Source of the DNA: Fasciola hepatica
Lineage: Eukaryota > Platyhelminthes > Trematoda > Plagiorchiida > Fasciolidae
Direction: 5' to 3'
NCBI GenBank assembly: GCA_948099385.1
Contig: CANUEZ040000113.1
Location: forward strand, 8,072,501 to 8,136,500
DNA length: 64,000 nucleotides
Program-made: the position numbers and the translations under genes
Shown here: positions 26,706-62,000 of the stretch, piece after piece
Numbering within the stretch: the first letter of the stretch is position 1
Layout of the letters: every line of letters begins with the position of its first letter
The notes under the pieces: generated by a model
Told to the model about the DNA's origin: nothing
Database searches by the model: none
The model's input: only the letters and a program-made list of their open reading frames with translations

Positions 26706-26830
26706 AATAAGCTTCCACTGTGACCTGTTATTTATCAATGCGAGAAGACTTGTCTCCACCGAGTGGACTGCACTGCATCGAGTGGTCAACGATGGGGCTC
26801 CTCTTTTTCTGTGTCCGTGAGTCCGCTACT

Positions 26831-27395: not shown

Positions 27396-27399
27396 AATC

Positions 27400-29200: not shown

Positions 29201-29388
29201 CCTGTTGTTGAAAGACATCAAGTTTATTGCCTGATCATTTAAGCTCTTACCATCTGCCGGTGTGTGCATAAATGTGTTTGTATTGAGAATGTGTGGAGGA
29301 AGTGGTTACACATTTCATAAGATCTTTGTGAAGAGGGCGAGCAGAGTCAGTAATAATCTTTGTAGATGGCTTTGGACGAGTTCTACTT

Positions 29389-35799: not shown

Positions 35800-38447
35800 G
35801 AATCAATAATCACCGTACAGCGTTAAACACTAGGGCAAGCCCCACTGACCACTGCCTTTCTCCCCATGTTGCACGCTGAATTAGAAAGTTTGAATATACA
35901 AGGTGGACAGGGAGTGGACCTACAGGGGTGGGAAAAGGAAAGAATGCCCAAGTAGCCAACACAGAATAAACAATCTAACTGTACAAACGCACATCGATCA
36001 ATCATTCGGATTCGACAGAAAGAAAGTGACAACACGATCGCCACTGTTCATGGTTATCTGCCATATCCTTCAGTGTCTCCAGCCAACTAGTAGACGGATC
36101 TTTCGGACCTCAACCACAAAGACGTGAGGCACCTACTTTTCCTAAGTTCGCTGTACATTCTCTCATTCCTCGTTGCCACGTCATCTGTTGACCTCCACGT
36201 GGTTTTTTCCACTCTTTAGGCTGAACGGAGAATGAGACACGGTATGGTAGACGTGTGTTTGACATACGTAACACGTGCCCCAACCAACGAAGTCTACTAA
36301 GTTGGATACGCTGCGACAAAACGTTCTCCACACTGGCACCCAATACTCTGTTTCTCACCTCAGCATTGCTCTTTCGGCTATTCCGCCTAACTTTAGCGAT
36401 ACTACGCAAACATCTGTGGTCAAAAACCTCAAGACGACGAATGTCTTCTGCATGCAGACCCCAAGTCTCGCAACCATGCAACAAAACTGAACGCACTGCG
36501 GCACTATATACACGACCCTTCAACTTCAGTAAAATATCAGATCGACGCCACAAGTGCTTCAGTCCAGCGTACGCCGCTCGAGCCTTGGATATACGCGTGC
36601 TCACCTCCACTATAGTGCTCCCATTCGTCGTCACGCTGCTGCCGAGGTAGGTGAAGCGCTCGACAATCGGTAGCACCACATCGAGCATCAAGCTCGAAAT
36701 CCTTGACGTCCAGTTTTCTCACTTTGAAGGTGCAAAGCGCATGCCAAATGAAGCTACAGCTCTTGAGAGTCTACCTAGTGCACGTTGAGCATGTTCCGTG
36801 GATTCGAACAAGCAGACAACGTCGTCTGCGTAATCTAGCTCACATAGGTTTCCACTACTTCCCAGTTCGACGCCTACATCCTGAAGATTTTGCAAAGCAC
36901 TTTCCGTTATTTCGTGCATGACAAAGTTGAACGGGAATGGAGACATAGGACATCCCTGTCGAACACCACTGTTCGTTTAGAACCGACCGGATAGTTCACC
37001 ATAAACTCTAACGCGGCCAGAAGTATGAGAATACAATGATCTTGGTAGGTTCACGAACTTCTGGGGCATGCCTTTTCGCTGAAGAGCACTGAAAAGCACT
37101 GTTCAATCAACTGAATCGAAGGTGCCTTTCAAGTCTAAGAAGACCATTATTGTCGGTCGGCGGTGCATGTGACGCGTTTCAAGTAGTCGACGAAGAGTAA
37201 AAGTCTGTTCAATGCATCCTCGACCTGGGCGGAATCTGGCCTGTTGTTCGCGGGTGTTCCTCTCGCGAGCGGGTGTAAGACGGTGCAGCAGAATTGTGGC
37301 TAATACTCTGGTGTCTATCAGAATTAAGCTAATCTCACGATGATTACTACAGTCATTTTGTATTCCCTCCTTGAAGATGGGAACAATCAATGACTCGCTA
37401 CATATGAACGGAATACGCTCCGCGTTCCAAATGCCACGGAGCAAAGCGGTAAGTGACTTTATCAAAACATTCCCATCCAGTTTGAAAAGAACTGGGGGAA
37501 GTTCTTCGGGACCGGCCGCTTTCCCTCGCTTTAGTAGTCCAGTACATGACTCCACTCCCACTTCCGATGGGGACTCAAGTGATACCACCCAAGGAGTTCC
37601 AGTTGTTGATACAGGAGTAACCACACTAGCGTGCGGCCAGCTAAACTGTTCCTTGAAGTATTCGGCCCAACGGTCAAGCTTTTGCTGTTTGCCATGGATG
37701 GGTTCTCCATTCCTATCGCAAATCGTTTCACTGACCTGGATGCGCCGTCCACCGGTGTCACGAATAAGTTTGAAGAGTCTCTGACTGTTACCTGAAGCAG
37801 CTGCTATTTCCATTTCTTCGGCTACCTTGACCCACCAATTTCCGCGATCCTTCTTAAGGCTTTTCGTAACTTGCCTTTGCAGCTTTCTCCGCATCTTATT
37901 TATCTCCTTACAATTCGGGAGCTGACGCTTTTGCTTCATTATACTCAGCGACTCTTGCGAAATCCAATGTCTTTGACGGACATCGGATCTGTGACCACAG
38001 GCAAAACCTGCTGCAACGTGCATCGCCTGTTTGATATGAGCCCAATGCTCATCTACGGTACTGTTCGTCGTAGACCCTAGCTCATGTGCTAACTTCTGCA
38101 CGTAACGGGTGCATACTTCTGGATCACACAAACGTTGCACGGCCAATCGGGTTTGCGGTTTGCGACGATGACCATTGAGCTGCAGATAATCGCATTAAAA
38201 CTAATGCATGGTCCGACTCTACGTACGTGGACCAGTGAGATCTACAGTTCTGAACAGAACTGCGCCACCGGTAGCTTACGGCGATATGGTCAATTTAACT
38301 CGAGGTACCTGTAGAGTTAGATCGCCGTGTCGCTGTGCGACGCGAACTGTCGGAAAATGGTGCTAGACGATAACAATCGATTGTCTGCACAAAACTAGAG
38401 AAGCCTATCCCCGTTATTTGTACGCTGAGCGGGTAAAGCACAACGCT
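35800..38447 (-). mobile_element. RTE-like LINE, copy 2 (inverted, 5'-truncated)
   Basis: Minus-strand copy of 31,053-33,680, with the same reading frame, the same four stops, and one seen amino-acid change in the 347-codon RT frame (Asp to Gly in the LLRDIWNAER block). Similarity to copy 1 begins inside the endonuclease at about 38,447 and runs to the 3' end near 35,800, as expected of a 5'-truncated LINE insertion. The last 110 bp or so (35,800-35,910) are only about 75-80% alike while the preceding 2.5 kb is above 99%. The GAT tail is reduced. No target-site duplication was found. Confidence 0.85.
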
Positions 38448-41260: not shown

Positions 41261-42677
41261 TCAGGCTGTAACTTTTCCCCGTTCGTGATCGCGTTTCAAT
41301 GGACCCTAGAAGGTTGCACAAGTTATTTGCAATTGACATTATTCTTACCATAACGGCTTTCTTCTCGGCTCTGGTCTGGAACCTTCCGTGACCGAATTTG
41401 GACGATGTGTCGACAAACTTCAGCAAAATCTTCTCCTTTGATCGTCTATTAACTTGTGCAAGAATGGTCTTCCGCAGAGTTATCACTCGTTTTTTCGGCC
41501 CCATGCAGCAACCTTTGATCATCACATAGTCATTTCGAACTTCACCGTAATGAGGGAAACCACCCATAGGCGTAATATTTTTAGCCGTCAGGTCGAACTC
41601 TGTGGAAGCGTTGCCCTTAGGTTTGATCAAAGCTGCTTTGTCCTTGTTATCCTCCTTGGCCGCTTCGGCTTTAGCCGCTTCTACTTGTGCCTGCAAGCCT
41701 GGAGAATATTAGCCATCGAAAGCAGTGTACTTACCTAATCCAATGCGATATATCTTTTTATTGAGTTCAGTGCGATGGAAATACCCCTTCTGACCAGCAC
41801 GAGCAACCGTGGACCCTACACGAGCGGGATGCCACGAACCGATACAAGCGACTTTACGCAAGCCCTTATGAGTTTTGCGTGGAAGTTTCTTCGTGTGCCA
41901 CCTAGATGTTACCCCCTTGAACCCTTTACCCTTAGTGACACCAATAACATCAATCATCTCGTCCTGGGCGAATACATTCATTATAGGTATTTGCTTTTCA
42001 AAGTGCTGTCGAATCCAGTCGACCTTCTGCGCGACGGTACCACCGTTGACTTGAATCTCCATTATGTGAGCCTTCTTTTGGCGGTGCTTCATCAAACGCA
42101 TCTACGTATGAGCAGTAAAAAACAAACGAACTCACCTGAGTATGTGCAATAGCACGGACGACAGTACAGTATTTCTTGATTTTGCGTAAATCACGGGTGA
42201 TTTCCTTCAGACCTGCCTCATCAGCCCACTTCTTGGAAGCTTTAGTGAATGCCTTCCTCTTCGACTTACACCAGTCTTTGTAGAACCGGCGCCGACACTC
42301 CTCTGTCAAGTGCTCAGCCCATACAGTTTTGAACGTGCGGAGACCGCGAGCTGTAGGTGCATAGCCCACCATGCCCACGATAACCATCGGAGGACACTCC
42401 AGTACGGTAACTGGCTCGACAATTTCACGCTTATGCACCTTGGAGCCCGGTCGATCTACTTCTCTCACGATATGAGTCATCCCAGCTTTATAACCGAGAA
42501 ACGCAGTCAAGTGCGGAGGCAGTGACCGACGATCCTTCGGAAAAGCCTTGCATTTTCCACGGATTCTCCGGCTTCTTTTCTTTGGAGTGAACCCCAAGGA
42601 TCCGTGTCGGGGTGCTGAGAATTTTCGGTGCGACTTAAAACCAGATGAGAACGACAACCCACAGCACGACTTACCAT
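41261..42677 (-). CDS. RPL3: Ribosomal protein L3 (uL3), five coding exons
   Basis: Core protein of the large cytosolic ribosomal subunit, next to the peptidyl-transferase centre. Coding exons on the minus strand are 42,677-42,675 (ATG only), 42,633-42,136, 42,101-41,735, 41,698-41,349 and 41,305-41,261. Introns are 41, 34, 36 and 43 bp, all GT-AG. The joined length is 1,263 nt, 420 residues plus TGA, in frame throughout. The chain opens [16 protein letters not shown] and includes [45 protein letters not shown] and the end KFGHGRFQT. His245 (the RPL3 histidine methylated by METTL18 in human) and Trp257 (yeast Trp255, tip of the central loop) are present. Against human (403 residues) there are about 17 extra Ala/Lys/Glu-rich residues at the start of exon 4. 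The gene looks intact. Confidence 0.97.
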
Positions 42678-42760
42678 GCCCAACTCTTCGCACGAAGTGA
42701 AATAGCGCGTGCTTTGATTGATTTAAACAAAGGGCTTGAGGACAACTTGTGAAACTATTA
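42678..42760 (-). promoter_or_regulatory. RPL3 5' leader and putative core promoter
   Basis: Immediately upstream of the start codon on the minus strand is a short leader (…GAAGAGTTGGGC before ATG) behind a CGCGCTATTTCACTTCG stretch, which could contain a pyrimidine-rich (TOP-like) start site. No TATA box is evident. Position of the transcription start is a guess. Confidence 0.3.
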
Positions 42761-43201
42761 CCGTCTAATTGGACAGGTATATTACAAGCCTAGATCACAA
42801 GTAGATTTTTAGGGCGAGGTTCAGCGATTTTCCTCTCCACAGTTGGTGCTGCCAGAAAAGATCTAAACTGAACTGGTGAGTGCCGTTCGGTTAGAATTCA
42901 TAGTGCTCTTGTTTTTAAATTGAGTTTTTGAATAATTTTGTGAATTAACCTAATTTAATTCACAAAACTGAGCGTATCAGAATTGCATTTAGGGTGCGTT
43001 TTATCCGGAGAATATTTTTATTCTCCTTGTAGTATCGCCGAGTAGTGTTCCGTGTTTTTCGAAGCAACCTTTTCTCGCTTTTAGTCTTTCTTTTTGTTCT
43101 TTTGTGTTAGCGGGATTTACCTGCTAGTGTCAGAGTCTTTATTTTGTGTTTGGGTAAAGAGCGCTTGAGTTTTTTTCGCCCACGTTTTTGTGGTTTTCGA
43201 T
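42761..43201 (+). other. Spacer / probable 5' untranslated region of the LINE ORF1
   Basis: Between RPL3 and the PHD-finger ORF, transcribed divergently if both are active. T-rich plus strand, no frame, no domain. Probably LINE 5' untranslated sequence for at least its right part. Confidence 0.4.
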
Positions 43202-44176: not shown

Positions 44177-44380
44177 TGTAACAGCCGGTCGTGGAAAATC
44201 CCCCCTTTTCCCTCGCGATTCAGTGTTTTTCCCAACATCACTCATTTGCCTACACTATTGACTTGTCTTTACGAACTGGTTGTTTTTCTGGACCAATTGT
44301 TGTTTGTTCGCGCCCAGAGCGCTACTTTGGCACATCCTTGTTCAGGACCTGCGTGACGCACGTGCTGTCTGCTCACACGC
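44177..44380 (+). repeat. BEL-B 5' LTR, left part
   Basis: Matches 54,562-54,765 with scattered substitutions and ends at CACGC, the left copy of the target-site duplication made by BEL-A. Confidence 0.9.
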
Positions 44381-44739
44381 TGTAACGAACGAATACTGAA
44401 AATCCTTCTAAATGTTCAACGTGCTTTGTGAATTTGACTATATTTAACATTATCTTGGAAAGCTCGCTCATACACCACACATTTTCACGTTTGTTTATCC
44501 ATGTGAGACATTTGAATTTGGCCTTGAACCGTTTCTGACTGTCGTGCTTGAGCCACGGGGCTTTGGACCTTTGGGTTTTACTGTGAAGTCTATTTGGCCG
44601 CATACTTGAGGTTCGTATATATTTGTATCCTTTGTGTATTTCAATTTAGTACCGTAGAAACTACGAATCAATCTTGTTCTGGTTTTGGGATTCGTTTGAA
44701 TTGGCTACGCGTTGCTCGATTTGCGAGATTCGACTAACA
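44381..44739 (+). repeat. BEL-A 5' LTR
   Basis: 359 bp, TGTAAC...TAACA. Identical to 48,124-48,482 but for one base. Its 3' third resembles the BEL-B LTR end (ttggctacgc-ttgctc), showing the two families are related. Confidence 0.95.
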
Positions 44740-44777
44740 GTACTCAAGTGGAACCTGGACAAGAAAACTCATTGGAA

Positions 44778-46472
44778 ATGCCCAGACGAGGAAGCAAGGA
44801 CATTTTGAGACAACAGGAAATAACTCGGCAAGTCTCTGGGGATGGTTCGGGTGTTATTGATTCTCTAGATAATACTAAGTTTACTAGCTCTGTCAGTGCC
44901 AGGTCATATATTTCTAACCGCGATGCGTTTGACGATATTAGTACTTATAGAATGCGAGTAATAGAATTAGAAAACGAGCTGCGGTTAGCCAGAAAGGAAG
45001 CAGAGCCCCTTACACAAGGAACTGGTCTCAGAGAGCCAGCAAAGAGTCCACGTAGTTCACAATGTCAACATCGAAAAGGCACTGTGATCGACGAATATAA
45101 ACCCTTGAGACAGCCTGAAACTACCGAGGTTTTGGCTCTTGACCTGCCGAGAGTGGAGCTGTCCCACTTCGACGGGCACCCCGAGCAATACTGTATATTC
45201 ATGAAACAGTTCGAAAATTTTGTTGAGTGCAAAGTTGCAGATCCTGGTCAAAGGTTTTTGTATTTATTACATTACTGTCGTGGGAGAGCCAAAAGTGCAA
45301 TCGAAGGCTGCGCGATGCTTGATCCACCGATGGGGTACATCAGGGCGCGCAGAATCCTGAAAGATTTGTTTGGACAACCATTCAAGGTGGCTAGAAGCCT
45401 AATTGATAGTGTTTTATTGGAGGCGAAAAGGACTGAGGGCAAGGCTGAATCACTGTCGAGTTTGGTGATAAAAATGCAGAATTGCAGTATAGCACTGGAG
45501 CACTTAGGATACCAGTCTGATCTGAATGCATTGCACACACAGGAATGCATTGTCCGATGTCTATCTATTGATTTACAGAGCCGATGGGCAGAGGAAGCTG
45601 AAAAAATAAATATGCTTGAGCGGGAATCTACGTTCAACGATTTGACGGAGTTCATAGGTCGTCAATCCCGTATCGCCAACAGCCGATTTGGACAAATCGT
45701 ACGCGAAAGTTGCAGACTGGCGCGAAGGGAACCAACATCTCGAATTGTGGAGAAGGACTGTAACCAAACCCAGTCTTTGGCTAACATGCACATGATAAGT
45801 CAAGAACCCGAGAGGTCAGCTGAATGCAAGCTATGCAACTCCCTGCATCGGTTACCAGATTGTCCGACCTTTCATGGGATGAGTGTACCCGATCGGTGGT
45901 GCGCGGTAAAAAGGATTGGCTCATGCTTTATGTGTTTGAACAACTCTCATCGAGCCTCTGAATGCAGCTTAAGAGTGAAATGCAACCAAGACGGATGCTT
46001 GGGTAATCATCACTCGTTACTGCATGGCCTTCTCAACAATAGACCTATTCAGCCAGATGAACCCAAAATTGTCTGTTCAACGGGACATGATGATTTCAAA
46101 CCGGCAAGATTAGGCATCGTACCTGTCGGTATCGTGACACCTAAAGGACTGAGGAGGGTCAATGCATTTTTGGACACGGGGTCGGATACCTCGCTGATTA
46201 CTCGCGAGCTTGTAGAAAGCTGTGAACTAGTAGGCGAGCCTACCTCGCTCACTATCAGCACGATTGCAGGGGGTCATGTTAGCAATTCTAAGAGGCTGAC
46301 CCTGCAGTTAACGTCTTTATCTGATGAGGGGACCGTAGAAATTCCGGAAGCTTTTGCAATAGACAGCTTGCCAATGAGACCAGTCGACTCTGTTAGATCG
46401 ATCGCCAGGAGATGGTCTCATCTCAGGGACATAGAGTTCGGAGAAGTTTCTAGACCCACGTCGACATACTAA
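44778..46472 (+). CDS. BEL-A Gag-protease polyprotein
   Basis: 564 codons from the ATG at 44,778. This start is chosen because the same MPRxGSK opening occurs at the matching place in BEL-B (48,703) and upstream sequence is LTR. The N-terminal third includes a coiled stretch (YRMRVIELENELRLARKEAE). The DUF1759-type Gag core begins at LPRVELSHFDGHPEQYCIF and runs to about codon 320. A Cys/His knuckle region follows: CKLCNSLHRLPDC, CFMCLNNSHRASEC and CNQDGCLGNHHSLLH. The retropepsin active site is FLDTGSDTSLI, intact. The frame ends by a shift near 46,455, inside the conserved LIGCN-VPEAHW segment that joins protease to RT. It would form the particle and process itself, but cannot reverse transcribe. 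Confidence 0.85.
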   Translation: MPRRGSKDILRQQEITRQVSGDGSGVIDSLDNTKFTSSVSARSYISNRDAFDDISTYRMRVIELENELRLARKEAEPLTQGTGLREPAKSPRSSQCQHRKGTVIDEYKPLRQPETTEVLALDLPRVELSHFDGHPEQYCIFMKQFENFVECKVADPGQRFLYLLHYCRGRAKSAIEGCAMLDPPMGYIRARRILKDLFGQPFKVARSLIDSVLLEAKRTEGKAESLSSLVIKMQNCSIALEHLGYQSDLNALHTQECIVRCLSIDLQSRWAEEAEKINMLERESTFNDLTEFIGRQSRIANSRFGQIVRESCRLARREPTSRIVEKDCNQTQSLANMHMISQEPERSAECKLCNSLHRLPDCPTFHGMSVPDRWCAVKRIGSCFMCLNNSHRASECSLRVKCNQDGCLGNHHSLLHGLLNNRPIQPDEPKIVCSTGHDDFKPARLGIVPVGIVTPKGLRRVNAFLDTGSDTSLITRELVESCELVGEPTSLTISTIAGGHVSNSKRLTLQLTSLSDEGTVEIPEAFAIDSLPMRPVDSVRSIARRWSHLRDIEFGEVSRPTSTY

Positions 46473-47302
46473 TTGGATGCAATGTACCAGAGGCTCACTG
46501 GGTGCTTGAACAGAGCATAAGCAATCGAAAAGAACCATTCGCTACGCGAACGATACTAGGCTGGACACTTCTCGGACCCCTGACGAGCGAACTTCAACAA
46601 TCGGCATCAATAAATTGCTCAAATGTTGCTGAAAGAAGTGCCTCTGTAGAACACGATCAGCCTTTCGATATTGAATCCAACGGTCCATCTCAGGAAAGCG
46701 AAGTTCACTCGAAGGATCAGTCGGCGCTTTCGATGGCGAATTCAAAGACGGGACTTCACAGTGGGCAACATGAAGTTGCTATACCCGAGAGACCACCGTC
46801 AAGTCACTTATTGAGAAAAGGAGAAGTTGCCCGGAGGCTTTTGAAATATCTCAAAAAAGGACACCAGCAGGTCACCCAAAGCAGCTTGAAATTTGCCGAC
46901 CCAGTGACAGTGTACGGTACCTGGGTGGAACTGCATGGCCGGCGGCGAAACAAAGTACCCTTTGCCAAAACAAAAATTGCTGAGCTGAAGTCAGTATCCC
47001 TAAACGAGCTCAAAACGACTGCACCGGTATTGGGTTTTAAGGTAGCACGAATGCTAAAAGAGAACTGCACCACCGCCGAACTGAGCCTTGCCTATTGGAC
47101 AGATCCTACAGTTGTGTTACATTACAGGAAACGGAAGAAACGAAGAACGTGTTCGAGACATCAGAGAGTTAATCCACTCGTAGCAGGAAACAGCGAGGAA
47201 AATGTTGATGATTCGAGCTCGAAACCACATACAAAAGACAAAGTAGCTCGCAGATCGCCTCGCTCCGAGTTACTCAGCACTTTATTGCATTTCATGCCCT
47301 AA
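46455..47302 (+). CDS. BEL-A truncated pol remnant, still open
   Basis: Continuing in the +1-shifted frame from the VDILIGCN block, the frame stays open for about 280 codons to TAA-like termination at 47,302. It begins with the PEAHWVLEQSISNRKEPFATRT and GWTLLGPL segments typical of the protease-RT linker. A Ser/Glu-rich stretch without RT motifs follows, then an RNase H-like piece (VYGTWVELHGRRRNKVPFAK, LKSVSLNELKTTAPVLGFKVA, YWTDPTVVLHY) and a basic end. Palm motifs with the catalytic Asp pair are missing. The shift could be a programmed frameshift or a mutation. Confidence 0.7.
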
Positions 47303-48123
47303 GACTAATCAACTGGACCCATTTTTTCTGAAAGGTTGCAAATGTACTTAGTTCCAGTTTCTATCTAGCGTGCACATAGGCGAAGAGGAGAAATTCACCA
47401 GTATTTCACTTGAACAGTTCAGGTGAGGCACACTAGCTGCGAGCACATTGTGAAACTATTATTATCTTTAAAGAAGAACATTTATTTACAATTTATACAA
47501 TATTGATTGTCACATATTTTGTGCACAGAAAAACTTTGAAATACTCTGATAGATTCCAGTTTTCGATCAATCTCCGTGTTCATGTGTATTTCGATACTGT
47601 CCGCCGTACACTTGTTTTCGAAATTTATTAATAATCAGAAACCGGTTTTCATTTCTTTCGGAAGATTCGGTGCGTTAATTTTATGTAATTCCACTGGTTC
47701 GTGACCTGTCAATTTTACGCGATATCTCATTAGGCGTTGCACCTGTGTTCAACTTCTGCGCTCAAGCTTGTAAACAAAATTAGTCTAACCAGTTGCTGCA
47801 ATGGGTTACTGCTTGTGATGCTTAGACTTATTTCGTGCGGCGAAACACTTCACTCTGCGAAGCCTTCATCTTCATCGTGCGTCTGACTATATGCGCCGGT
47901 TTCCTGATGAATATGTCAATCTCAAGTTGTGCAGCGGGATTTGGAATTGATTCCTTATGGATTGTGCGATGATGACTACGGCAAAAACCTGTTTCACGTT
48001 CAGATAACACAGGAAGTTAGTATCCACAGGCACTGACGATAAGTTAAAGGTAGATAGGGTGAGAATCATGACCCCTTCCTGAACCTTAGACAGCCATTTT
48101 CGCGGAAGGATTTTGGCCGGCGG
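47303..48123 (+). other. BEL-A 3' region without coding content
   Basis: 820 bp between the pol remnant and the 3' LTR. No integrase zinc finger or DDE blocks in any frame. It ends in a purine-rich stretch (gcggaaggattttggccggcgg in two parts) that is a plausible polypurine tract. Confidence 0.6.
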
Positions 48124-48482
48124 TGTAACGAACGAATACTGAAAATCCTTCTAAATGTTCAACGTGCTTTGTGAATTTGACTATATTTAACATTATCTTG
48201 GAAAGCTCGCTCATACACCACACATTTTCACGTTTGTTTATCCATGTGAGACATTTGAATTTGGCCTTGAACCGTTTCTGACTGTCGTGCTTGAGCCACG
48301 GGGCTTTGGACCTTTGGGTTTTACTGTGAAGTCTATTTGGCCGCATACTTGAGGTTCGTATATATTTGTATCCTTTGTGTATTTCAATTTAGTACCGTAG
48401 AAACTACGAATCAATCTTGTTCTGGTTTTGGGATTCGTTTGAATTGGCTACGCGTTGCTCGATTTGCGAGATTCGACTTACA
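48124..48482 (+). repeat. BEL-A 3' LTR
   Basis: 359 bp, ends TTACA, followed by CACGC, the right copy of the target-site duplication. Confidence 0.95.
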
Positions 48483-48661
48483 CACGCTGCTATTCGGTTT
48501 CTCGTTGTTGAGTGCTTGTGATCGTATTATTGAGGTTTGTATATTGTTTATGTCATTGTTTATTGTAATAATCTAGTATCGTAGAATATCACGGATAATC
48601 GTCTTTTTGATTTCGGGATCCGTTGCGAATTTGGCTACGCATTGCTCAAACTTTCGTTACA
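48483..48661 (+). repeat. BEL-B 5' LTR, right part
   Basis: Continues the BEL-B LTR after the BEL-A insertion; matches 54,766-54,938 (ttcggtttctcg, aatatcacggataatcg, tttggctacgc) and ends GTTACA at 48,661. Confidence 0.88.
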
Positions 48662-48702
48662 ATACTCAATATATCAATTTGGAACGAGAAAAAACAGGCA
48701 AA

Positions 48703-50110
48703 ATGCCAAGAAAAGGATCGAAAACATTGGAATCCGGACAGGAGGTAACACGGCAAGTCTCTGGGGAGGTTTTGGGTACCTTTGATTCTTTAGTTATTGT
48801 TAGATCGCCTAATCCTGTCAGTGCCAGTTCGTGTTACTGAGGGCGATATGGATTGTAAGGATGTCGATCTATATAGGCTGAGGATATTATACCTGGAACA
48901 ACAACTGTTGTCGGCTAGACAACAGGCCCAGGAAGCAGTGCAGACGTGTAGATAGAAAGAGCGTGAGCATGAGACCAACGACAATGACACTTCCGATAGA
49001 TCAGGGCAAAATAAAATAGGAAACTTCACGCACGTCGCCGACTATAAAACACCAACGATCGATTTGCCAAGAGTAGAACTGAAGGCTTTCGACGGGCGAT
49101 CTGAACAATACTGCAAGTTTTTTCAAGCGGTTCGAGACGTTCGTCGAAAATAAGGTAACCGACCTCGGGCAAAGGCTTCACTATCTGACTCACTGGTGTC
49201 GAGGCCGAGCAAGAGAAGCTATCGACGGGTGCACCATGCTCGACCCAGAACAAGGCTACACAAGGGCAAGGAAGATCCTAAGGGACCTGTTTGGCCAACC
49301 TTTCAAAGTAGCCCGTAACCTAATAGAGGGCTTGATGATAGAGGCAAAGAGAACCAAGGGCGACGTCTACACCATGGCCGACCTAGTGATCAAGATGCAG
49401 AACTGCTCAATAGCCCTCGACCATTTAGGTTACAGGGCTGACCTAGACGCCATGCACACTTTGGAAGGCATAGTCCGTCTCCTCTCTCCCGAACTACAGG
49501 GTCGGTGGGCGGAAGAAGCAGAACGGATAAGCCGAAGCGACAGAGAAGCCAACTTCAAAGACCTGACCGAATACTGGGACAGGCAAACGAAGATAGCTGA
49601 CAACAGATTCGGCCGACTCATCCGGGACAGCAACCGAGCAAACAAGCCCAGTACTAGCCAAGTCCAAACCCTGTACGGGAACATCCAAAGTACCAGCCTT
49701 GGACCAATACACACGTCATTTCAGGAGATGCTACGGCGAAACCAAATTGCAGATCCTGTGGTACCAGCCATGGCCTACCAGAATGCCCCAAGTTCAACAA
49801 CGCCACAATAGACGAACGGTGGGGAATGGCGAGGATGGCAGGAGAGTGTTTTATCTGTCTCAACACCACGCGCCGTGCAGCAGCCTGTAGAACAAGGAAT
49901 CGATGTGGTTACGAGGGCTGCACGGGCAGACACCATCGGCTGCTGCGTCAGGCGAGAGTAACCACATCCGAGGCGAGTGCCAAGCCCGGCGGTACTCGTT
50001 CAACGTCACGATCTGCCAGTAAACCGGTACTTTTAGGCGTAGTGGCCGTGGGAGTAGTGACCCCAACTGGGGTGGTCAAAGCGTTGGCTTTCGTCGATAG
50101 AGCGGTTTGC
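48703..50110 (+). pseudogene. BEL-B gag and protease, broken
   Basis: Starts at ATG 48,703 (MPRKGSKTLESG, as in BEL-A). TGA at 48,838-48,840 and further stops close the frame until 49,236, where an open run to 49,811 holds the Gag core (GYTRARKILRDLFGQPFKVAR, ELQGRWAEEAERI). Another shift leads to 49,826-50,110 with the knuckles CFICLNTTRRAAACRTRNRC and GCTGRHHRLL and the protease lead-in (LLGVVAVGVVTPTGVVKALA). At the protease active site only FVD remains: the following Thr-Gly and the next residues are deleted with a frame change near 50,098. This protease cannot work. Confidence 0.82.
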
Positions 50111-52931
50111 CGACAAACACCAACTGGCTAAAGGTGCGACGTCGTTAGCGGTGAGCACCGTGGGCGGAACACAGGTAATGACTGGCGGTATATTAAGGCT
50201 GCAACTCATCTCTCTAGATACTAACGAGGAAATTGAACCAACGGAGGCATTCACGTTAGCGGATCTCCCCATGCGAGCACCAAGGTCGGTGAACGCAATC
50301 TTGACTCGGTCGCCCCACCTGCAGGATGTAACCGTTGTAGACTGGGAAGATGATGAATTGGATCTCCTCATCGGCTGCGACGTGCCAGAGGCGCATTGGG
50401 TGCTTGACCAGAGAGTGGGCGACCGCCAGGCACCTTATGCCGTACGCACGGCCCTGGGATGGATGTTATACGGTCGAGTAGGGGTACGCGGTTCCGTGAA
50501 TTACTTATCCGCCGAAACGGACCGCATAGAGTATCATCTGCAGCGGCTGTATGAAAAGGAATTTCATGACATTGGAGACGAAAGACCGACGTTGTCTCAA
50601 GAGGATGACTTCGCTCTACAAACGGTGCGGCAAGGCACTAGAGGCCTCAAAAAGTGGTTCGACGTTCCCCTCCCATGGCGCACACAGGACGACCCGTGGA
50701 CTGACAACAGAAATTATGTTCTCCAACGATTACTACGACTAAAAGAACGCTTCATTCGAGACCAGAATCTGTGGGAACGATAAGTGGATTTGATGAAGCG
50801 AAACGAGGCCCTCGGTTACGTTGAAAAGGTGCCTGTGAACACCGACAGCAAAAGGGGTATCTGGTATCTGCCTCACCACCCGGTTATCAACCCCAAGAAA
50901 CCCAAAAACTGTGGGTGGTTTTCGACTGTGTGGCCAAGTTCCAGGGCAAGTCGTTAAACGGTCGCCTACTTCAAGGGCCTGACTGGACCACGCCACTGAT
51001 CGATGTTTTGTGCCGTTTCAGAGTGGGTAAAGTGGCTTTGTCTGCTGACATTAGGGAAATGTTCCATCAGGTGAAGATTCCGGTAGGAGAACGAGATGCT
51101 TTGCGTTTCCTGTGGTGGGAAGAGGGCGACCGGGACAACGCAGTGGTGAATTATAGGATGACCGTCCACCCCTTCGCAGCCATTCTGTGTGAACTACGCC
51201 CTCCGAGAATCGGCGAACAAACATTGCGATCTAGTACATCGGACGGTGGTAGAAAGCGTCAGCAGGAATTTCGACGTCGACGACTACCTTGGGTCATTCG
51301 AGGATGTGGAATCAGCTCTAGAGCAGTTCAGGGGTCTGACGAGATTGCTGGAAGAGGGCGGCTTCCATCTAACTGAATGGATGTCGAACGCTTCAGAAGT
51401 GCTGAAGGTCATCCCGTATCACGAAAAGGCCGAAAGGGTAAGATATTTGGACGGCTCTCCACTTCCTACCGAGCGCACCTTAGGGATACAGTGGGACGCG
51501 GAAACGGACGATTTTGTTTCCGAGCTAAACGTTCCCGAGCTGCCAATAACCCGTCGTGGCATACTATCTTCCGTCTCAAGTTTGTTCGACCCGCTCGGTT
51601 TCGTCTCACCATGGCTGCTACCCGGAAAGTTCTTGCTGCAGCGACTGTGTCGTAAGAAAGTTTATTGGGACCAGTCACTGGACCGAGGGGACCGGCTGGA
51701 CTGGGAACAATTTTTGAACACCTTGAAGAAATTAGGGGACATAAGAATCCCACGATGTTTGACTCCTGGCCATACGACGCGGACTGGAGAACTACATGCC
51801 TTTTCCGATGCATCCGAAGTCGGTTATGGAGCTGTGGTGTACGGACGATGGTGCGCAGGAGATGGACAATATACCACGAGGATCCTGTTCGCCAAAGCCC
51901 GCGTTGCTCCACTGAAGTCGGTCTCAATCCCACGCCGTGAACTCAACGCAGCCGTGTTGACAGTCAGGCCGGTGCAAGCTGTGAAGAGATGTTTCGATCT
52001 CTACATTTGGTCGGTGAGCTTCTGGACGGATTCAACGATAGTACTTTACTACATTAACAATGTCCGGAGCCGGTTTAGTACTTTCGTTGCTAACCGGCTC
52101 ACGATTATCCACGATGAATCAGCCACGCACCAGTGCAGTCATGTCAGGTCTGGCGATAATCCGGCCGATCTGTGCTCCCGAGGTGCCAACAACTTCAGGC
52201 AACTGGACACGTGGACGAGAGGGCCAAACTTCCTGCAATTGCCCAAACAGGACTGGCCCGTGTTCGAATTAAAATCCCCTACGGAAGTGGAACTGGAGAT
52301 CAAAGGCGTAGTGATAGCAACCAACGTCGTCGAAGCGTCGTCCATTCTATCGCGACTGGTCAGGTTTTCTTCCTGGATGAAGACACTTCGTGCGTTAGTT
52401 CGGTTAGCCAGGTTCAAGAGAAATTTGCTAATCATGAAAGGGCTACGGCCCTCAGGTCGGATACGGGTCGGCCCGATAGGTCCCGATGAGCTACAAGCGG
52501 CAGAGTACGATATTTTCAGAATGGTACAACGCGAGGCTTTCGCCCGAGAACTCAAGAGGGCGGAAGATGTGGGACCGACCAATAAAGACACACCATCTCT
52601 AAGAGGCGAGCTGAAGCGTTTAAACCCCAAACTCATCAACGGACTGCTGCGGGTGGATGGTAGGCTGACCAACGCCCACCTGAACTTCGACACAAAGTAT
52701 CTTATACTGCTGCCTGGGAGACAACCTGTAGTAGAGCTAATGATCCAACACGTCCACGCCATGGAGGGACATGCCGGGGAAAGTCACGTGACAAGCGTCA
52801 TCCGAAAGCGTCTTTGGTTGTTGAGAGGACGAGAGACTGTAAAACGCGTTATCCGACGGTGTGTGCAATGCAGGGGACGCAATGCCACAGCAGGCAAACA
52901 ACACATGCCCCTCTACCAGAATGCAGGGTGA
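50103..52931 (+). pseudogene. BEL-B pol: protease end, reverse transcriptase, RNase H, integrase zinc domain
   Basis: After the protease deletion, frame 50,103-50,783 carries LIGCDVPEAHWVLDQRV and the RT lead-in, closed by TAA 50,781. RT continues through two frame changes: 50,915-51,190 has motif A (ALSADIREMFHQVKI), and 51,189-52,931 has motif C (FDVDDYLGSF, Asp pair at 51,279-51,284). Next come the connection (FDPLGFVSPWLLPGK), RNase H (HAFSDASEVGYGAVVYG near 51,790; SVSFWTDSTIVLYY near 52,020) and the integrase His/Cys domain (HVHAMEGHAGESH to CVQC, 52,755-52,870). The 580-codon run shows recent selection or youth. The stop and shifts make the whole inactive. Confidence 0.88.
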
Positions 52932-53437
52932 CTACGGGCTGGTGGCCGTTCAGTGACACCGGGTTGGACTATTTCGGGCCCTTGTGGATCAAGTGCGGGA
53001 AAAGATTAGAAAAGCGATATGGATGTATCATGACGTGCATGAAATCACGTGCGGTACACCTAGAAGTCGCACATTCGATGACAACCGATTCGTTTCTACG
53101 GGCCTTGCAAAGATTTATCAACCGAAGAGGCGTACCGGCCGATATATACTCAGATAATGGATCGAACTTTGTGGGCGCTCAACGGGAATTGCAGCGTTGG
53201 CACAAGAACATAAACAGGGACGAACTGCAGGATCGAACCGTGGCCTACGGCATACGATGGCATTTCAACCCCCCACAGGCCAGTCACCGAGGCGGAATAT
53301 GGGAACGCATGATCCGGTCCGCCAGACGGATATTGCTGTCAATCATGGAGCAGCAGCCGCCCGACGGCGAGACGCTGAACACCGTCATGACTGAGGTAGA
53401 GAAAATTCTGAACAACCGCCCCTGGTTCCAGTATTGA
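52925..53437 (+). pseudogene. BEL-B integrase catalytic core
   Basis: Frame 2 from about 52,925, displaced from the preceding pol frame by one shift. All three catalytic acids are present: Asp in GLDYFGPLW (codon 52,967), Asp in YSDNGSNF (codon 53,153), and Glu in GGIWERMIRSARR (codon 53,303), so the second Asp and the Glu are 50 codons apart. The surroundings (CIMTCMKSRAVHLEVA, RWHFNPPQASHRGG) are typical of BEL/Pao integrase. The frame ends at 53,437 by another shift in the NNRPW segment. Confidence 0.85.
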
Positions 53438-53859
53438 ACGGCGACCCCACCCACCTGGCGATCACCCCAAACGACTTATTGACGTTAAGGTCGAACGAGG
53501 GTTTTCAAGGGCCGATAAACCTTCGTGGGAGCTACCTCCACGAATGGAAGCAAGCGAACTATCTGGCCAAGGTCTTCTGGAGGCGATGGCTACAGGAGTA
53601 CCTACCGGCTTTGCAGACTCGACAGAAGTGGCTGGCCAAAACAAGACCATTCAAAGTTGGGGACGTGGTTATGATCGCCGACGAACGCGCACACTTCAGC
53701 GCTTGGTCTTTGGGAGTAGTTACGGAAACCATTAAAAGCACTGACGGAATGATAAGAACGGTGAAGTTGGAGACAGCTAACGGAGTGCTTCTTCGTGACA
53801 TACGCAGTATTAACCTACTCGAGAGCGAAGACGGAGGAGCTGATAACCCTGAGGCCTAG
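53434..53859 (+). pseudogene. BEL-B pol C-terminal domain (DUF5641-like)
   Basis: Third frame of the integrase region: LAITPNDLLTLRSNEG, VFWRRWLQEYLPALQTRQKW and FKVGDVVMIADE, ending RSINLLESEDG. This matches the C-terminal domain that follows integrase in BEL/Pao polyproteins. It is intact in itself and ends at TAG 53,857-53,859. Confidence 0.82.
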
Positions 53860-54561
53860 TAAACCTTTTTCACACCAGAAATCGAGGTGGATAAAGAAAC
53901 ACCATATATACCACACAATCTCCGTCAAACACGTTAAGGTGCTCGCGGTCTTTTCGTTGACATTACAGAAGGTTCTTTCCGATACGTGGTGATGAATGCG
54001 ATTCCATTGTACATCCCGATACATACACGCGTGCACGACGCACTCTACATCCCGTAAACCCATCAAACATGTGACAGCGTTCGCTGTTTTGCTTTTTGTT
54101 GACGCTACCGAATGCCCCTTGCATATGCGGAAGTAGCGGAGCTCAGGTCACACACACATGCTACATTTACTCGTCTTCTTGCCACGCGGTCTTTTGTTGA
54201 CATTGCAGAAAGTCCTCCTTTGATGTGTAGTCATACCTGTGATTTCATTGTAACCCCGGCACACACACACACACGCACTCACACACACACTCAAGCACGT
54301 ACATTCAGGACCGGACGGCCTCTTACGAGGACAACGTCTATGTGACCATTCACGCCCGCCATCGGTCATTTGGTCTTGTGGAAGATGTAGACTAGCTTCA
54401 CGTCTATGTATCCAATGGATTAGGTGCAACTATGAGTAGAACGTTGACGACGAGCATTAGACGCGCGCACTGACAGCAGGGCCTAGGCAGGTAGGAAGAA
54501 TCAGTACCTTTATACCGAACCTTTGACTCTGCTAAGGATCCAGGAGGATTTTGGTGGGCGG
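53860..54561 (+). repeat. BEL-B 3' untranslated region with degenerate tandem units and (CA)n
   Basis: Units beginning 'gcggtctttt-gttgacatt-cagaa' at 53,941 and 54,181 match over about 80 bp; a weaker third unit (gctttttgttgacgct) lies near 54,088. An interrupted CA run occupies about 54,259-54,296. The region ends in the purine-rich stretch before the 3' LTR (aggaggattttggtgggcgg). Confidence 0.65.
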
Positions 54562-54938
54562 TGTAACAGCCGGCCGTGGAAAATCCCCCTTTTTCCCTCA
54601 CGATTCAGTGTTTTTCCCAACATCACTCATTTGCCTACACTAATGACTTGTCTTTACGAACTGGTTGTTTTTCTGGACCAATTGTTGTTTGTTCGCGCCC
54701 AGAGCGCTACTTTGTCATATCCTTGTTCTGGACCTACGTGACGCACGTGCTCCTTGCTCGCACGCCGCAATTCGGTTTCTCGTTTGTTGAGTCCTTGTGA
54801 TCTCATTATTGGGGTTTGTATCTTTTTGGTGTCATTGTTCATTCAATAATCTAGTACCTTAGAATATCACGGATAATCGCCTTTTGATTCCGGGATCTGT
54901 TGTGAATTTGGCTACGCTCTGCTCAAATGTGCGTTAAA
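54562..54938 (+). repeat. BEL-B 3' LTR
   Basis: 377 bp, TGTAACAGCCGG...GCGTTAAA. The last bases differ from the left LTR's GTTACA. Confidence 0.88.
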
Positions 54939-55241
54939 CCCTCCTTTCCCCATATTTGGGGGTTTGGTTCCATCTGGAACAGACTAACAGGCCTGAGAAC
55001 AGAAAAACCGGTCACCCCGCTATACTTCGTAAGATCTCGAGGTCAGCTCTCCTCTAGAGAGATAAGTTCAAGATCTCAGAGTCTCTGTTCACAAGTCATC
55101 CCCCTGTAGCGTCGAACCTTTCGCGAAGCAAACCCTACCTTTCTTGATATAGGCAGAGTCCCTCTTGTGGAGGGGTGCCCAAGACCATGTTATCCTCTAA
55201 AGGAAGAAGCACAATAGCACGACAAGTCTAAAGCCTCACAA
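54939..55241. other. Spacer between BEL-B and mosaic copy 2
   Basis: Nothing recognised; no match to the sequence left of mosaic copy 1. Confidence 0.5.
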
Positions 55242-55935
55242 TATAAGCTTCCACTGTGATTTGTTGTTCATCAATGGGAGAAGTCTTGTCTCAACCGAGC
55301 GGACTGCACCGAATTGAGTGGTCAACGATGGGACTCCTCTTTTTCTATGTCCGTGAGTCCGCTCCTGAAGGAAACAGGAAGGGGTTTATTTGATAATTCA
55401 AATCTTGGTATCCTGAATGGTGAAAATGACCTTAGCTGACGGTAGTGCTTAGTCGTAACGAACTACCATATTATTGTTTTAGGTCCTTGGAATACTTCTA
55501 CTCAGTAAGGAGATAAAGGTCTACAACAAGCATTGTTGGTTTGAACAGAGCCAGCCTTTTAAGTTACCCCGGGCATATGGTTGGAGTAAACGACAAAAAT
55601 CGTCAGCAATGCAGTTACTGACTGACTGAATACAATGCATATATACTTTCGTGAATGATCATCGTGTTAAGCAACAATTGGATGCAATCGTCAGCTCGTT
55701 ACTTTACCAACGGACAACTTGAGAACGCCATTCGTTCTGCCAACGGTGTTGTTTTATTTGGGCCTTGGTTTGCACTGACCCGAGATACGAACGAACCACC
55801 TTGCGCCACAAATACTAATCAATCGCCGAATAAAGTATGCCATAACATTATCAGGGGAAAGCGAACAACCGTTTTCAGGGATTCCTAGTCTTGTTCTTTC
55901 ATATCATACAACTTGCTTCTCCGACAATAAGAATC

Positions 55936-57736
55936 GCCTAAATAGAAAGCCCTGGAAAATCATCCGAACCGGACGAACTCGACCCTACAGTGCTCAAGGA
56001 GTGTGCGGTTACCCTCAACCCTAGCCTTTCTGATCTTGGCTAGTGTCTAAGGGATAGAAAGATTCCAGACTGTTGGAGGAGATATAACTCCCATTTTTTA
56101 AGACACTCTTCGAAATTCCGTCCCCCCGCTGTTTGCACCTGTCTCTCTTAAGGCGTTTGAAAGATCGGTTCTCCAACGACTGACTGAAAGTTATAATGTT
56201 TCAGATCTTGGTCATTTTGACTACCGGAAATCATACCCTCGCTATCCTGACACACTACATTCTGTCCGCACTTCCCCAACTGGCAGCCTTTAACTGGTCG
56301 CGACCCAATTCTTGATACATCGTACTACTGTCATATGATGGGAAGGAATTAAGTAAAACAATTAGGAGTAAAGCAGTAAGAACAGGCTTCCTAGGCTTCA
56401 GTGATGCATTCAACTACTTTGATAGGAATGAACTGTTTTCATTTGTTTTGGTATTAAACTTTCTCTTGTCCCCTTTGTTGAAAGATTACCTTCACAAGCA
56501 CCAGCAGTTCGCCTGGTAAAACGGTAACACCTCTTTACTTGTCACCACTGCCCATGACGTTCCCCAGGGCGTCATATGGTAATGAAGAAGACAAGGTGAG
56601 TGAGGAACACCTCTATTTGAGCAGCTAAACAAGTCAAGTCGGTGCAACGTGAACAGCTGCTTAAATAACCTTTTTCCAGACCACGCTGTAGCAACATTGA
56701 TCCTCCGGATGCCTGAGTATTTCTGCTGCGTCCTGGCTAGTTGTCTGAGGCCATTAGCTTGATTCTTTTGCGCACTGTTTCCGTTTGGCTGGTCTGACTG
56801 TTCAGGTTGACGGCTTGATCGGTAGCTCATTATATGGGCTATCTTTCTGGTTACCTGAAATTCTGCTGCGTCCCACCTATTAGTCTGTACGCTTCCGATA
56901 AACTCATCGCCTGTTCTTTGGTTTGTGGCTCTAGATTGACCGGCACGCTACAATATTATTCCCATTTTTACTTTCTGAGTACATTTATACCATTCCTGTA
57001 CATGAAAATAACCTCCTTTCATATTTGGTATGCCGTATGCCTGCGATTCCAGCTCCCTATTCTCCAGGATGGCATCACCCTAACCCCAGATTGGTCTGGT
57101 GCTCATAGCTTAGGCTTCAACCCAATTAAGTGTGGTGACATTGTATTTCCCCATTTTAACGGCAGGCAGCATTCTAGTTTTCAAAATGAATGGACCTTTA
57201 TTTCAATAAATGAGGAACAACTGAATCAGCTTGATTCAACTAAGTACCTTGCAGTGTTGCTCGGCCGCAATCTTACTGGCTCCAAACATTAGTTTCCTTT
57301 TGTGAAAACTAGACGCTTGCCTCTTTCTTTTACATCTTAAATTCCACCCCGTACCCACTCATCTCATCAAACGCTGTTTTTTTCTTTCATGTGCTTTACC
57401 TCAGTGGCTATACGTCTCACCTGTGTAGTGACAATACATTCGTTTTCGGAAATAATCATATCTATTGTCAACCCATATACAGACCTTGCTTTACCACCCC
57501 GAACGAAGCTGTCCCTGGTTCGACCGCCAATATAACGTACGCTCTTGTGAGCACTCTCTGATCGTTTCTCACTCCGCACTCTTTGCTCCGCAGGTTTTCA
57601 TAAAAATCTCTGTGTCTCGTGACTGGTTGTCTGACTGCTAGTGAAGTATTGTTCGATTCGTGACAGGGGTTATCAACAGCGTCCATACACCATTCGTCTC
57701 GTTAGCCCTGCGCGCCAAACCTCCCATCTTTCCTGG
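55936..57736 (+). pseudogene. Decayed CR1-like LINE RT (duplicate of 27,400-29,200)
   Basis: Same relic with the same stops. Only single-base changes were seen, for example 'aaagttataatg' for 'aaagttttaatg' near 56,190. Confidence 0.6.
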
Positions 57737-57924
57737 CCTGTTGTTGAAAGACATCAAGTTTATTGCCTGATCATTTAAGCTCTTACCATCTGCCGGTGTG
57801 TGCATAAATGTGTTTGTATTGAGAATGTGTGGAGGAAGTGGTTACACATTTCATAAGATCTTTGTGAAGAGGGCGAGCAGAGTCAGTAATAATCTTTGTA
57901 GATGGCTTTGGACGAGTTCTACTT

Positions 57925-58407
57925 TTAGGATGTTATAAAGTGAGTGAAATGCTGTCGGAGTAAATTTTTGCTAAATTCAACTACTACTGACTTCAAAAAA
58001 GACGGAGGAAACCCATCCGCTCCAGCAGCCTTGCCATTCAATACAGACGATTTCACGGAGGACCCCGCTTCTGACGGAGGATTGGTATCTACATCGAGAT
58101 TTTCATCTACTGCGCTATTCAGCACACCTGTCATAGATGAAGCCCAGCTTACTCGTTTCTTGAGATGCTCCGCCGAAAGATCCAGGCAACGCTTCTGAGA
58201 ATGAATCAGTGAAACGTTCGCCTCCCTTGTCAGTTCATTAACACTAGATCTCCGTGAACTAGTGGTGATAGTTAGATTAAAAATTTTGACTGTTGCCATT
58301 TTCCGCAGTGCTTTCCATCTCCTTACACTTCGCAATCCCCCACTGCTTACGATCGTTTCATAGGCTTTGAATCGGTTGGAGTCTGAAGCACTTAGGCGCA
58401 TCGTCAC
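57925..58407 (-). pseudogene. Inverted LINE fragment (duplicate of 29,389-29,871)
   Basis: Minus-strand 160-codon frame with the NGKAAGADGFPPSFLK block. One change from the first copy, Tyr to Asp at residue 9. Confidence 0.6.
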
Positions 58408-59035: not shown

Positions 59036-62000
59036 TCATATTTCCTCAAGCCTCGTCAGATTCTCAATCTGGGCTCGCTTAACGTAAGTACACTCACGCA
59101 GGCCGGTCAGCAGGCGTGCCTAGCCTTCACAACGAACCCTCTGAAGGTTGATGTCTGCTGCTTAAGTGAAACGCGTATCCAGGAGTCGAGCAGCGTAATT
59201 AAACTAACTGTTCCTGGTATCTCATCGAGGTATTTCCTGCGCAGTTCAGGAGATGAAGCAGCTAGAGCTGTGGGTCAACGTGATGTAGGAAGCCTTGACT
59301 GACAAGGCTGAGGCTGCCCTCTTAGACTGGACCCCTGTAAACAACCAGCTATGTGCTGTGAGACTCCAAAGGTCAGTCGGTGTTCGAAAGAATAGTTGTT
59401 TTAAGCGCAATTTGTTTGTGATCTCGGCGTACGCCCCAACGGACTGCAGCTCTGACATGCAGAAAGACGAGTTCCACGATGAACTCGTTACCTTCGTTCG
59501 CAGCAGCAAAGGTTCTGACATTGGAGTGCTAGCTGATGACTTCAATGCACAAGCTGGTAAACTCAGTACGGCAGAAGTTTGTCTAGGTGGCCGTTGTGCT
59601 TTACCCGCTCAGCGTACAAATAACGGGGATAGGCTTCTCCAGTTTTGTGCAGACAATCGATTGTTATCGTCTAGCACCATTTTCCGACAGTTCGCGTCGC
59701 ACAGCGACACGGCGATCTAACTCTACAGGTACCTCGAGTTAAATTGACCATATCGCCGTAAGCTACCGGTGGCGCAGTTCTGTTCAGAACTGTAGATCTC
59801 ACTGGTCCACGTACGTAGAGTCGGACCATGCATTAGTTTTAATGCGATTATCTGCAGCTCAATGGTCATCGTCGCAAACCGCAAACCCGATTGGCCGTGC
59901 AACGTTTGTGTGATCCAGAAGTATGCACCCGTTACGTGCAGAAGTTAGCACATGAGCTAGGGTCTACGACGAACAGTACCGTAGATGAGCATTGGGCTCA
60001 TATCAAACAGGCGATGCACGTTGCAGCAGGTTTTGCCTGTGGTCACAGATCCGATGTCCGTCAAAGACATTGGATTTCGCAAGAGTCGCTGAGTATAATG
60101 AAGCAAAAGCGTCAGCTCCCGAATTGTAAGGAGATAAATAAGATGCGGAGAAAGCTGCAAAGGCAAGTTACGAAAAGCCTTAAGAAGGATCGCGGAAATT
60201 GGTGGGTCAAGGTAGCCGAAGAAATGGAAATAGCAGCTGCTTCAGGTAACAGTCAGAGACTCTTCAAACTTATTCGTGACACCGGTGGACGGCGCATCCA
60301 GGTCAGTGAAACGATTTGCGATAGGAATGGAGAACCCATCCATGGCAAACAGCAAAAGCTTGACCGTTGGGCCGAATACTTCAAGGAACAGTTTAGCTGG
60401 CCGCACGCTAGTGTGGTTACTCCTGTATCAACAACTGGAACTCCTTGGGTGGTATCACTTGAGTCCCCATCGGAAGTGGGAGTGGAGTCATGTACTGGAC
60501 TACTAAAGCAAGGGAAAGCGGCCGGTCCCGAAGAACTTCCCCCAGTTCTTTTCAAACTGGATGGGAATGTTTTGATAAAGTCAATTACCGCTTTGCTCCG
60601 TGACATTTGGAACGCGGAGCGTATTCCGTTCATATGTAGCGAGTCATTGATTGTTCCCATCTTCAAGGAGGGAATACAAAATGACTGTAGTAATCATCGT
60701 GAGATTAGCTTAATTCTGATAGACACCAGAGTATTAGCCACAATTCTGCTGCACCGTCTTACACCCGCTCGCGAGAGGAACACTCGCGAACAACAGGCCA
60801 GATTCCGCCCAGGTCGAGGATGCATTGAACAGACTTTTACTCTTCGTCGACTACTTGAAACGCGTCACATGCACCGCCGACCGACAATAATGGTCTTCTT
60901 AGACTTGAAAGGCACCTTCGATTCAGTTGATTGAACAGTGCTTTTCAGTGCTCTTCAGCGAAAAGGCATGCCCCAGAAGTTCGTGAACCTACCAAGATCA
61001 TTGTATTCTCATACTTCTGGCCGCGTTAGAGTTTATGGTGAACTATCCGGTCGGTTCTAAACGAACAGTGGTGTTCGACAGGGATGTCCTATGTCTCCAT
61101 TCCCGTTCAACTTTGTCATGCACGAAATAACGGAAAGTGCTTTGCAAAATCTTCAGGATGTAGGCGTCGAACTGGGAAGTAGTGGAAACCTATGTGAGCT
61201 AGATTACGCAGACGACGTTGTCTGCTTGTTCGAATCCACGGAACATGCTCAACGTGCACTAGGTAGACTCTCAAGAGCTGTAGCTTCATTTGGCATGCGC
61301 TTTGCACCTTCAAAGTGAGAAAACTGGACGTCAAGGATTTCGAGCTTGATGCTCGATGTGGTGCTACCGATTGTCGAGCGCTTCACCTACCTCGGCAGCA
61401 GCGTGACGACGAATGGGAGCACTATAGTGGAGGTGAGCACGCGTATATCCAAGGCTCGAGCGGCGTACGCTGGACTGAAGCACTTGTGGCGTCGATCTGA
61501 TATTTTACTGAAGTTGAAGGGTCGTGTATATAGTGCCGCAGTGCGTTCAGTTTTGTTGCATGGTTGCGAGACTTGGGGTCTGCATGCAGAAGACATTCGT
61601 CGTCTTGAGGTTTTTGACCACAGATGTTTGCGTAGTATCGCTAAAGTTAGGCGGAATAGCCGAAAGAGCAATGCTGAGGTGAGAAACAGAGTATTGGGTG
61701 CCAGTGTGGAGAACGTTTTGTCGCAGCGTATCCAACTTAGTAGACTTCGTTGGTTGGGGCACGTGTTACGTATGTCAAACACACGTCTACCATACCGTGT
61801 CTCATTCTCCGTTCAGCCTAAAGAGTGGAAAAAACCACGTGGAGGTCAACAGATGACGTGGCAACGAGGAATGAGAGAATGTACAGCGAACTTAGGAAAA
61901 GTAGGTGCCTCACGTCTTTGTGGTTGAGGTCCGAAAGATCCGTCTACTAGTTGGCTGGAGACACTGAAGAATATGGCAGATAACCATGAACAGTGGCGAT

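Follow-up and report, generated by a model that had tools for sequence, protein, structure and literature searches.

At positions 44381–48482 of a stretch of 64,000 nucleotides of Fasciola hepatica (assembly GCA_948099385.1, contig CANUEZ040000113.1, positions 8,072,501 to 8,136,500 of the forward strand; hereafter the window) we found a long terminal repeat (LTR) retrotransposon. It is very probably a recent insertion from a non-autonomous ('semi-autonomous') BEL/Pao family which is present in many copies and has kept its Gag. Copies of this family in the same genome share one internal deletion, lie between target site duplications, are young, mostly hold a single open frame, lack reverse transcriptase (RT) and integrase domains, and show constraint on Gag. 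Particle formation, and a helper that would provide the missing enzymes, are predicted from these sequences.

The element measures 4,102 bp and is read on the plus strand. It starts with a 359-bp 5' LTR (44381–44739, first letters TGTAAC), ends with a 3' LTR of the same length (48124–48482), and is bordered by the 5-bp target site duplication CACGC (44376–44380 and 48483–48487, no strand assigned). The LTRs differ by a single mismatch, at LTR position 356. Both the one-base LTR difference and the CACGC duplication had been described in a first-pass annotation made from the letters alone, and both were found again here. The insertion interrupts the 5' LTR of an older, full-length BEL element with broken frames (44177–54938, plus strand), whose 5' LTR runs over 44177–44380 and from 48483 to about 48661, and whose 3' LTR runs from 54562 to about 54936, the two being 90.4% identical. 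Once the insertion is removed and its flanks are put together, the restored LTR aligns unbroken to the older element's own 3' LTR (90% over 380 columns, 340/376 aligned positions), so the boundaries of the insertion are independently right.

Behind the 5' LTR comes a leader (44740–44777) with the presumed primer-binding region and the motifs TACTCAA and TGGAAC, which the element has in common with the neighbouring BEL family. The first frame covers 44700–46472, with its first ATG at 44778, and its Gag-protease part (44778–46472) stops in the window copy at 46472. It comprises a capsid-like helical domain (residues 130–315, 45165–45722), a nucleocapsid region with the zinc knuckle CFMCLNNSHRASEC (45723–46112) and an aspartic protease with the motif LDTGSD (46113–46451). 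The protease passes the Pfam cut-off for Asp_protease_2 (25.7 bits against 24.3). DUF1759 marks BEL Gags, and in this frame it scores 22.9 bits, under its cut-off of 25.4; the Gag of the older BEL next to it, 58% identical over 207 positions, does pass DUF1759. An AlphaFold model (mean pLDDT 60) is helical in the capsid region; a Foldseek search with it gave no match at E <= 0.001, the PNMA2 capsid at E 0.0096 being a hint only, followed by dARC1 at E 0.14.

The second frame (46454–47302, 282 open codons) overlaps the first at 46454–46472, which is where the frame of the window copy is broken, and holds a pol remnant in which a pre-RT segment is fused to an RNase H fragment (about 46901–47125), with RT absent. 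Residues 3–41 and 128–224 match two segments of the neighbour's pol, which are separated by 1,270 bp in that BEL and by about 260 bp here; by our reading of the frame at 50825–51376, which has no Pfam match itself, the RT of the older element sits between these two segments. Residues 42–149 are taken to be pre-RT on the basis of BEL motifs, a label on which the absence of RT does not depend; compared with the neighbour's pre-RT region they gave no significant similarity (score 20, shuffle mean 23.6, 1735/2000 shuffles as high). No RVT or rve domain was found with Pfam in the frames of the window element or in two single-frame copies, and the earlier description of Gag, an intact DTG protease and a pol remnant with neither RT nor integrase therefore holds. 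The 821-bp tail (47303–48123) contains no long frame, no integrase match and no significant similarity to the older BEL besides a 17-bp stretch: AGGATTTTGGCCGGCGG, with which it ends just before the 3' LTR, agrees at 15/17 positions with the sequence that precedes the 3' LTR of the neighbour, a match with an E of 1.8 taken alone and notable by its position. Because only a Peptidase_A17 tail remains (13.9 bits, sub-cut-off), and neither RVT nor rve, the element is, judged by its domain content, a deletion derivative of BEL/Pao and not a complete member. BEL/Pao elements (Belpaoviridae) have a pol with RT, RNase H and integrase and an 18-nt primer-binding site to tRNA-Arg or tRNA-Gly. Their LTRs measure 0.2–1.2 kb and their total length is 4.2–10 kb, or 4–10 kb in the table of the same source (PMC8742986). 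The 359-bp LTR is within this range, and the total of 4,102 bp is just below 4.2 kb, as expected of a deleted form.

The same deletion is found across the genome (1.5 Gb, 656 contigs). An LTR search, in which the best 40 of 1,046 candidates were scored, gave 99–100% identity in 40/40, with most pairs 3744 bp apart. When the best 138 of 21,704 candidates were scored with the second frame, the RT-less form was present in every one, at >= 99% protein identity over residues 2–282 (nine places with one stop). The first-pass annotation had proposed a search for further copies with this deletion and had named its confinement to one locus as the outcome that would speak for a single wreck; instead, all 138 scored places, at 99–100%, have it, with fixed LTR spacing and, in 20/20 dated copies, target duplications. 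Of 20 places that were fetched, 17 have an LTR spacing of exactly 3744 bp, one holds a copy with additional loss of sequence, and two consist of a lone LTR. Viral contigs, searched as well, yielded no relatives.

Of the 17 complete copies, 13 can be read from Gag through the protease into the pol remnant without a break (841 or 843 codons), and the other four have one stop. Frame lengths, tallied for 137 of the 138 second-frame rows, are at least 860 codons in 103 and below 800 in 29, and 33/39 copies are open to codon 840. The break of the window copy near 46454 is absent from all 39 other copies compared; in agreement, the window row alone starts at residue 1 of its 282-codon frame, and the other 137 start at residue 2. 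Short frames do occur in a few of these other rows (291, 298, 327 and 399 codons), which shows that breaks have arisen independently in further copies. A single frame is thus the normal layout in most copies examined and the two frames are a defect of the window copy, a detail in which the annotation's reading needs correction. A programmed frame shift near 46,455, where the annotation had suggested mapping RNA-seq to the frame shift, is rejected, since the break occurs in 0/39 of the other copies compared.

Some copies stand at exact 3744-bp spacing, as would head-to-tail arrays with LTRs in common (G000:C100 1874131–1886205; C43 3536910–3545240), and further pairs with this spacing are on C27, C41, C116 and C155. 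In L027 on C41, the one tandem unit examined, the 5' LTR is preceded by the tail of an element, and a target duplication is absent.

The family is young. LTR pairs were dated in 20 copies, one of them the window's. In 13 of these the two LTRs do not differ at all, and all pairs together show 12 differences in 7,180 bp; matching 5-bp target duplications are present in 20/20. These copies were picked by similarity to the window LTR (L027 being left out as a tandem unit with no target duplication), and for this reason they are probably younger than the average copy. The deletion itself is much older than the window insertion, because the RT-less arrangement is shared by P0008 (155 aa, encoded on an ENA contig of 787 bp), in which 115/144 residues are the same across the arrangement (80% identity). 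A third protein search with a two-sequence alignment returned P0008 again and nothing else; the best named Gag match is from Dicrocoelium dendriticum. That the element is a single full-length insertion which afterwards suffered a local deletion is refuted: such damage would suit a frame break that 39 other copies do not have, but the same deletion is in 138/138 scored copies and in P0008.

To measure selection, we counted variants in a set of 39 copies, without the window copy, made up of the 17 copies, 2 more and 20 whose selection took no account of Gag. Similarity to the window LTR had guided the choice of the first 19, and similarity of the ORF2 protein that of the other 20 (the 21 bottom plus-strand rows of the second-frame search minus the tandem neighbour C155:3107675), so both samples are biased; picking by ORF2 lowers the missense counts of ORF2 and not those of Gag. 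Left out of the counts were three lone LTRs (L023, L024, L032), a copy with a further deletion (L026), two partial copies (L029, L030) and two flanks (L035, L036). For the neutral expectation, the bias towards transitions was taken from the tail (34:23 variants); the frame's own bias is stronger (236:94), and an alternative model with a transition weight of 5 is nearer to it (its P values are given second).

Gag is under purifying selection, clearest in the capsid region. The Gag-protease part of the 17 copies has 38 synonymous and 56 other variants (expected synonymous fraction 0.272; P = 0.004), and Gag in the 39 copies has 76 synonymous variants, 104 missense and 2 stops (P = 9e-6; 2e-4), with P = 1.6e-6 (2e-5) in the 20 copies chosen blind to Gag. 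By region, the 39 copies have 34 synonymous, 35 missense and 2 stops in the capsid (P = 8e-5; 5e-4), 26, 30 and 0 in the zinc-knuckle region (P = 1e-3; 4e-3), and 17, 24 and 0 in the protease (P = 0.058; 0.09); residues 1–129 of Gag, with 16, 39 and 0, are indistinguishable from neutral (P = 0.47). Moreover, the LDTGSD motif and the zinc knuckle are identical in 20/20 copies, the window's Gag included.

For the pol remnant there is no clear departure from neutrality, with 34 synonymous, 69 missense and 4 stops in the 39 copies (P = 0.18; 0.32) and P = 0.24 in the 17 copies. The annotation had seen a sign of maintenance in the second frame staying open for about 280 codons; since the remnant is not clearly different from neutral, this openness is weak evidence. 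Neutral simulation against P0008 gives a chance of 0.16–0.20 of no stop, and the score for conservative changes is unremarkable (0.18–0.29 of simulations as high). As evidence of maintenance the open second frame is thus not supported.

These counts bear on two other explanations of an open Gag. A pure passenger, for which the Gag, RT and integrase of a helper do everything and whose own Gag is open merely because the copies are young, would agree with how young the copies are, with a pol remnant that is as open as Gag and without clear constraint, and with bovine ERVK, where defective copies dominate new insertions (PMC10924933). We consider this very unlikely in the face of a synonymous excess in Gag over neutral (P = 9e-6 in 39 copies) that is concentrated in the capsid and zinc-knuckle regions. 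Alternatively, template-switching recombination of RT-less RNAs with a selected autonomous relative would make Gag look constrained. This too is unlikely, since the 39 copies contain no strongly divergent tract (the largest difference in any 300 nt is 15) and no relative with a near-identical Gag was seen in the Gag protein search or among five open families sampled.

Several points weigh against a semi-autonomous family that keeps its own Gag by selection. Recombination with an autonomous relative could keep Gag clean. None of the five open BEL families sampled proved to be an autonomous partner whose LTRs are nearly identical to those of the element. Weak constraint on the pol remnant is possible, as its shared variants alone give P = 0.04 in the 39 copies and its piN/piS is 0.49 (bootstrap 0.26–1.01; neutral 0.80). 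Furthermore, constraint does not differ significantly between Gag and pol remnant (Fisher P = 0.10); when capsid and knuckle are pooled and set against all other parts, P is 0.005, but this grouping was chosen after seeing the data.

In the ancestor of the family, an internal deletion very probably removed RT, part of RNase H and integrase, and left the LTRs and a Gag-protease frame fused to the pol remnant. We hypothesise that the family spreads as follows. RNA from the 5' LTR would give the element's own Gag-protease, which could co-assemble with the Gag-Pol of an autonomous BEL element, and the RT and integrase of the latter would copy and insert the family RNA via shared ends. Because Gag is constrained in an element without RT, the data suggest that this Gag favours its own RNA. 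In its core the annotation's interpretation is supported: purifying selection on Gag is in line with its proposal that the family goes on making particles and borrows its polymerase, although the particles and the helper are still a matter of prediction. A more far-reaching version, which we put forward tentatively and hold to be somewhat doubtful, is a long-lived BEL/Pao lineage, reaching beyond one genome in view of the 80% identical arrangement in P0008, that lost polymerase and integrase for good, survives through a cis-preferring Gag-protease of its own, fused to a pol remnant, and exploits successive autonomous BELs.

A possible helper was sought with Peptidase_A17, for which the best 150 of 16,703 candidates were scored, all above the cut-off. 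By an eye count, about 50 of these 150 places lie in open frames of 1,700–3,400 codons, in several size classes. Short 5' stretches from one copy of each of five open-frame classes were compared with the family, and the 1,762-codon class alone resembles its LTR (73% over 139 bp), sharing TGTAAC, TACTCAA and TGGAAC; its Gag is 50% identical to the family Gag over 204 positions. The LTR of a copy of this class on C111 shares 89% identity with the 3' LTR of the window's older BEL, and a match like a polypurine tract (PPT) was seen in the decayed relative of the class in the window. The 1,762-codon BEL is accordingly named here as a candidate helper, not as a demonstrated partner. Of the full-length relatives with RT and integrase that the annotation had suggested looking for, BEL families with open pol frames do exist, and a close autonomous partner was not found among those sampled. 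A locus considered as partner, L023/L034, was rejected: it is a lone LTR beside another BEL (LTRs 98.5% identical, no frame > 405 codons). Open frames of 182,534, 523,135 and 10,847 codons were reported around Peptidase_A17 at G000:C92:5490971, C212:1567099 and C19:3658454, perhaps as runs of N, and Peptidase_A17 forms arrays on C252 (every 3,089 bp) and C75 (every 4,393 bp).

The older BEL that received the insertion has DUF1759, Peptidase_A17, zinc-binding and rve integrase domains, and its gag, RT, RNase H and integrase frames are broken. Two other copies of the RT-less family (L009, L016) have the RNase H-integrase region of another BEL on either side, and the window copy interrupts an LTR of a BEL. 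Insertion into BELs may be frequent, or the pattern may only mirror how abundant BELs are. An LTR-like stretch at 63402–63648 (minus strand) is about 67% similar to the older BEL LTR. Elsewhere in the window, 26699–29464 and 55235–58000 are 99.2% identical at an offset of 28,536 bp, and a non-LTR RT frame is nearly the same at 31307–33391 and 59843–61927, with the same offset; the two pairs look like a duplicated segment. A third copy of the non-LTR RT frames is inverted (36110–38194). A coding exon of ribosomal protein L3 is at 41998–42786 on the minus strand (Pfam Ribosomal_L3, E 9.4e-76).

Among open-licence papers, searched by titles and the beginnings of abstracts, no Gag-coding, RT-less BEL/Pao case turned up. 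Gag-coding LTR elements without enzymes are known from wheat, and a deletion form with fused gag-pol from mouse. A recent, multicopy animal BEL/Pao family with measurable constraint on its capsid offers a testbed for two questions: do elements of this kind live as parasites or donate Gag, and does their Gag work in cis? Since a single genome holds many near-identical copies, sequence data and RNA would suffice for much of such a test. RLG_Sabrina_SA of wheat, an abundant LTR family called 'semi-autonomous', lacks RT and integrase but has its GAG-protease frame intact (PMC9744471). The BEL/Pao family has likewise kept the Gag-protease frame and lost both enzymes, but it is an animal BEL/Pao with a fused RNase H remnant, whereas RLG_Sabrina_SA is a plant Gypsy-type element. 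Also in wheat, RLG_Quinta codes for Gag and has no RT or integrase, and its proposed mobiliser RLG_Cereba shares the primer-binding site, LTR ends and PPT (PMC11302176); that partner was proposed on several shared motifs, whereas here there is merely a distant candidate family. In flatworms, ta-TRIM of taeniid cestodes is a non-autonomous LTR retrotransposon thought to be moved in trans (PMC4558846), with an internal region that resembles no known protein, whereas the family described here codes for Gag and protease. The shorter, defective bovine ERVK[2-1-LTR] D-type elements, which dominate new insertions given competent copies (PMC10924933), have no intact GAG, PRO, POL or ENV frames, whereas our family keeps Gag. 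Finally, in mouse IAP 1-delta-1 an internal deletion creates one GAG-POL fusion that is reported to help in cis, while full-length IAPs have to supply GAG and POL in trans (PMC7411935). The Fasciola family resembles it in that an internal deletion left a single GAG-POL fusion; IAP 1-delta-1, in turn, is an endogenous retrovirus with a different deletion, and in the BEL/Pao family, known from its sequence, a cis effect of the fusion is putative.

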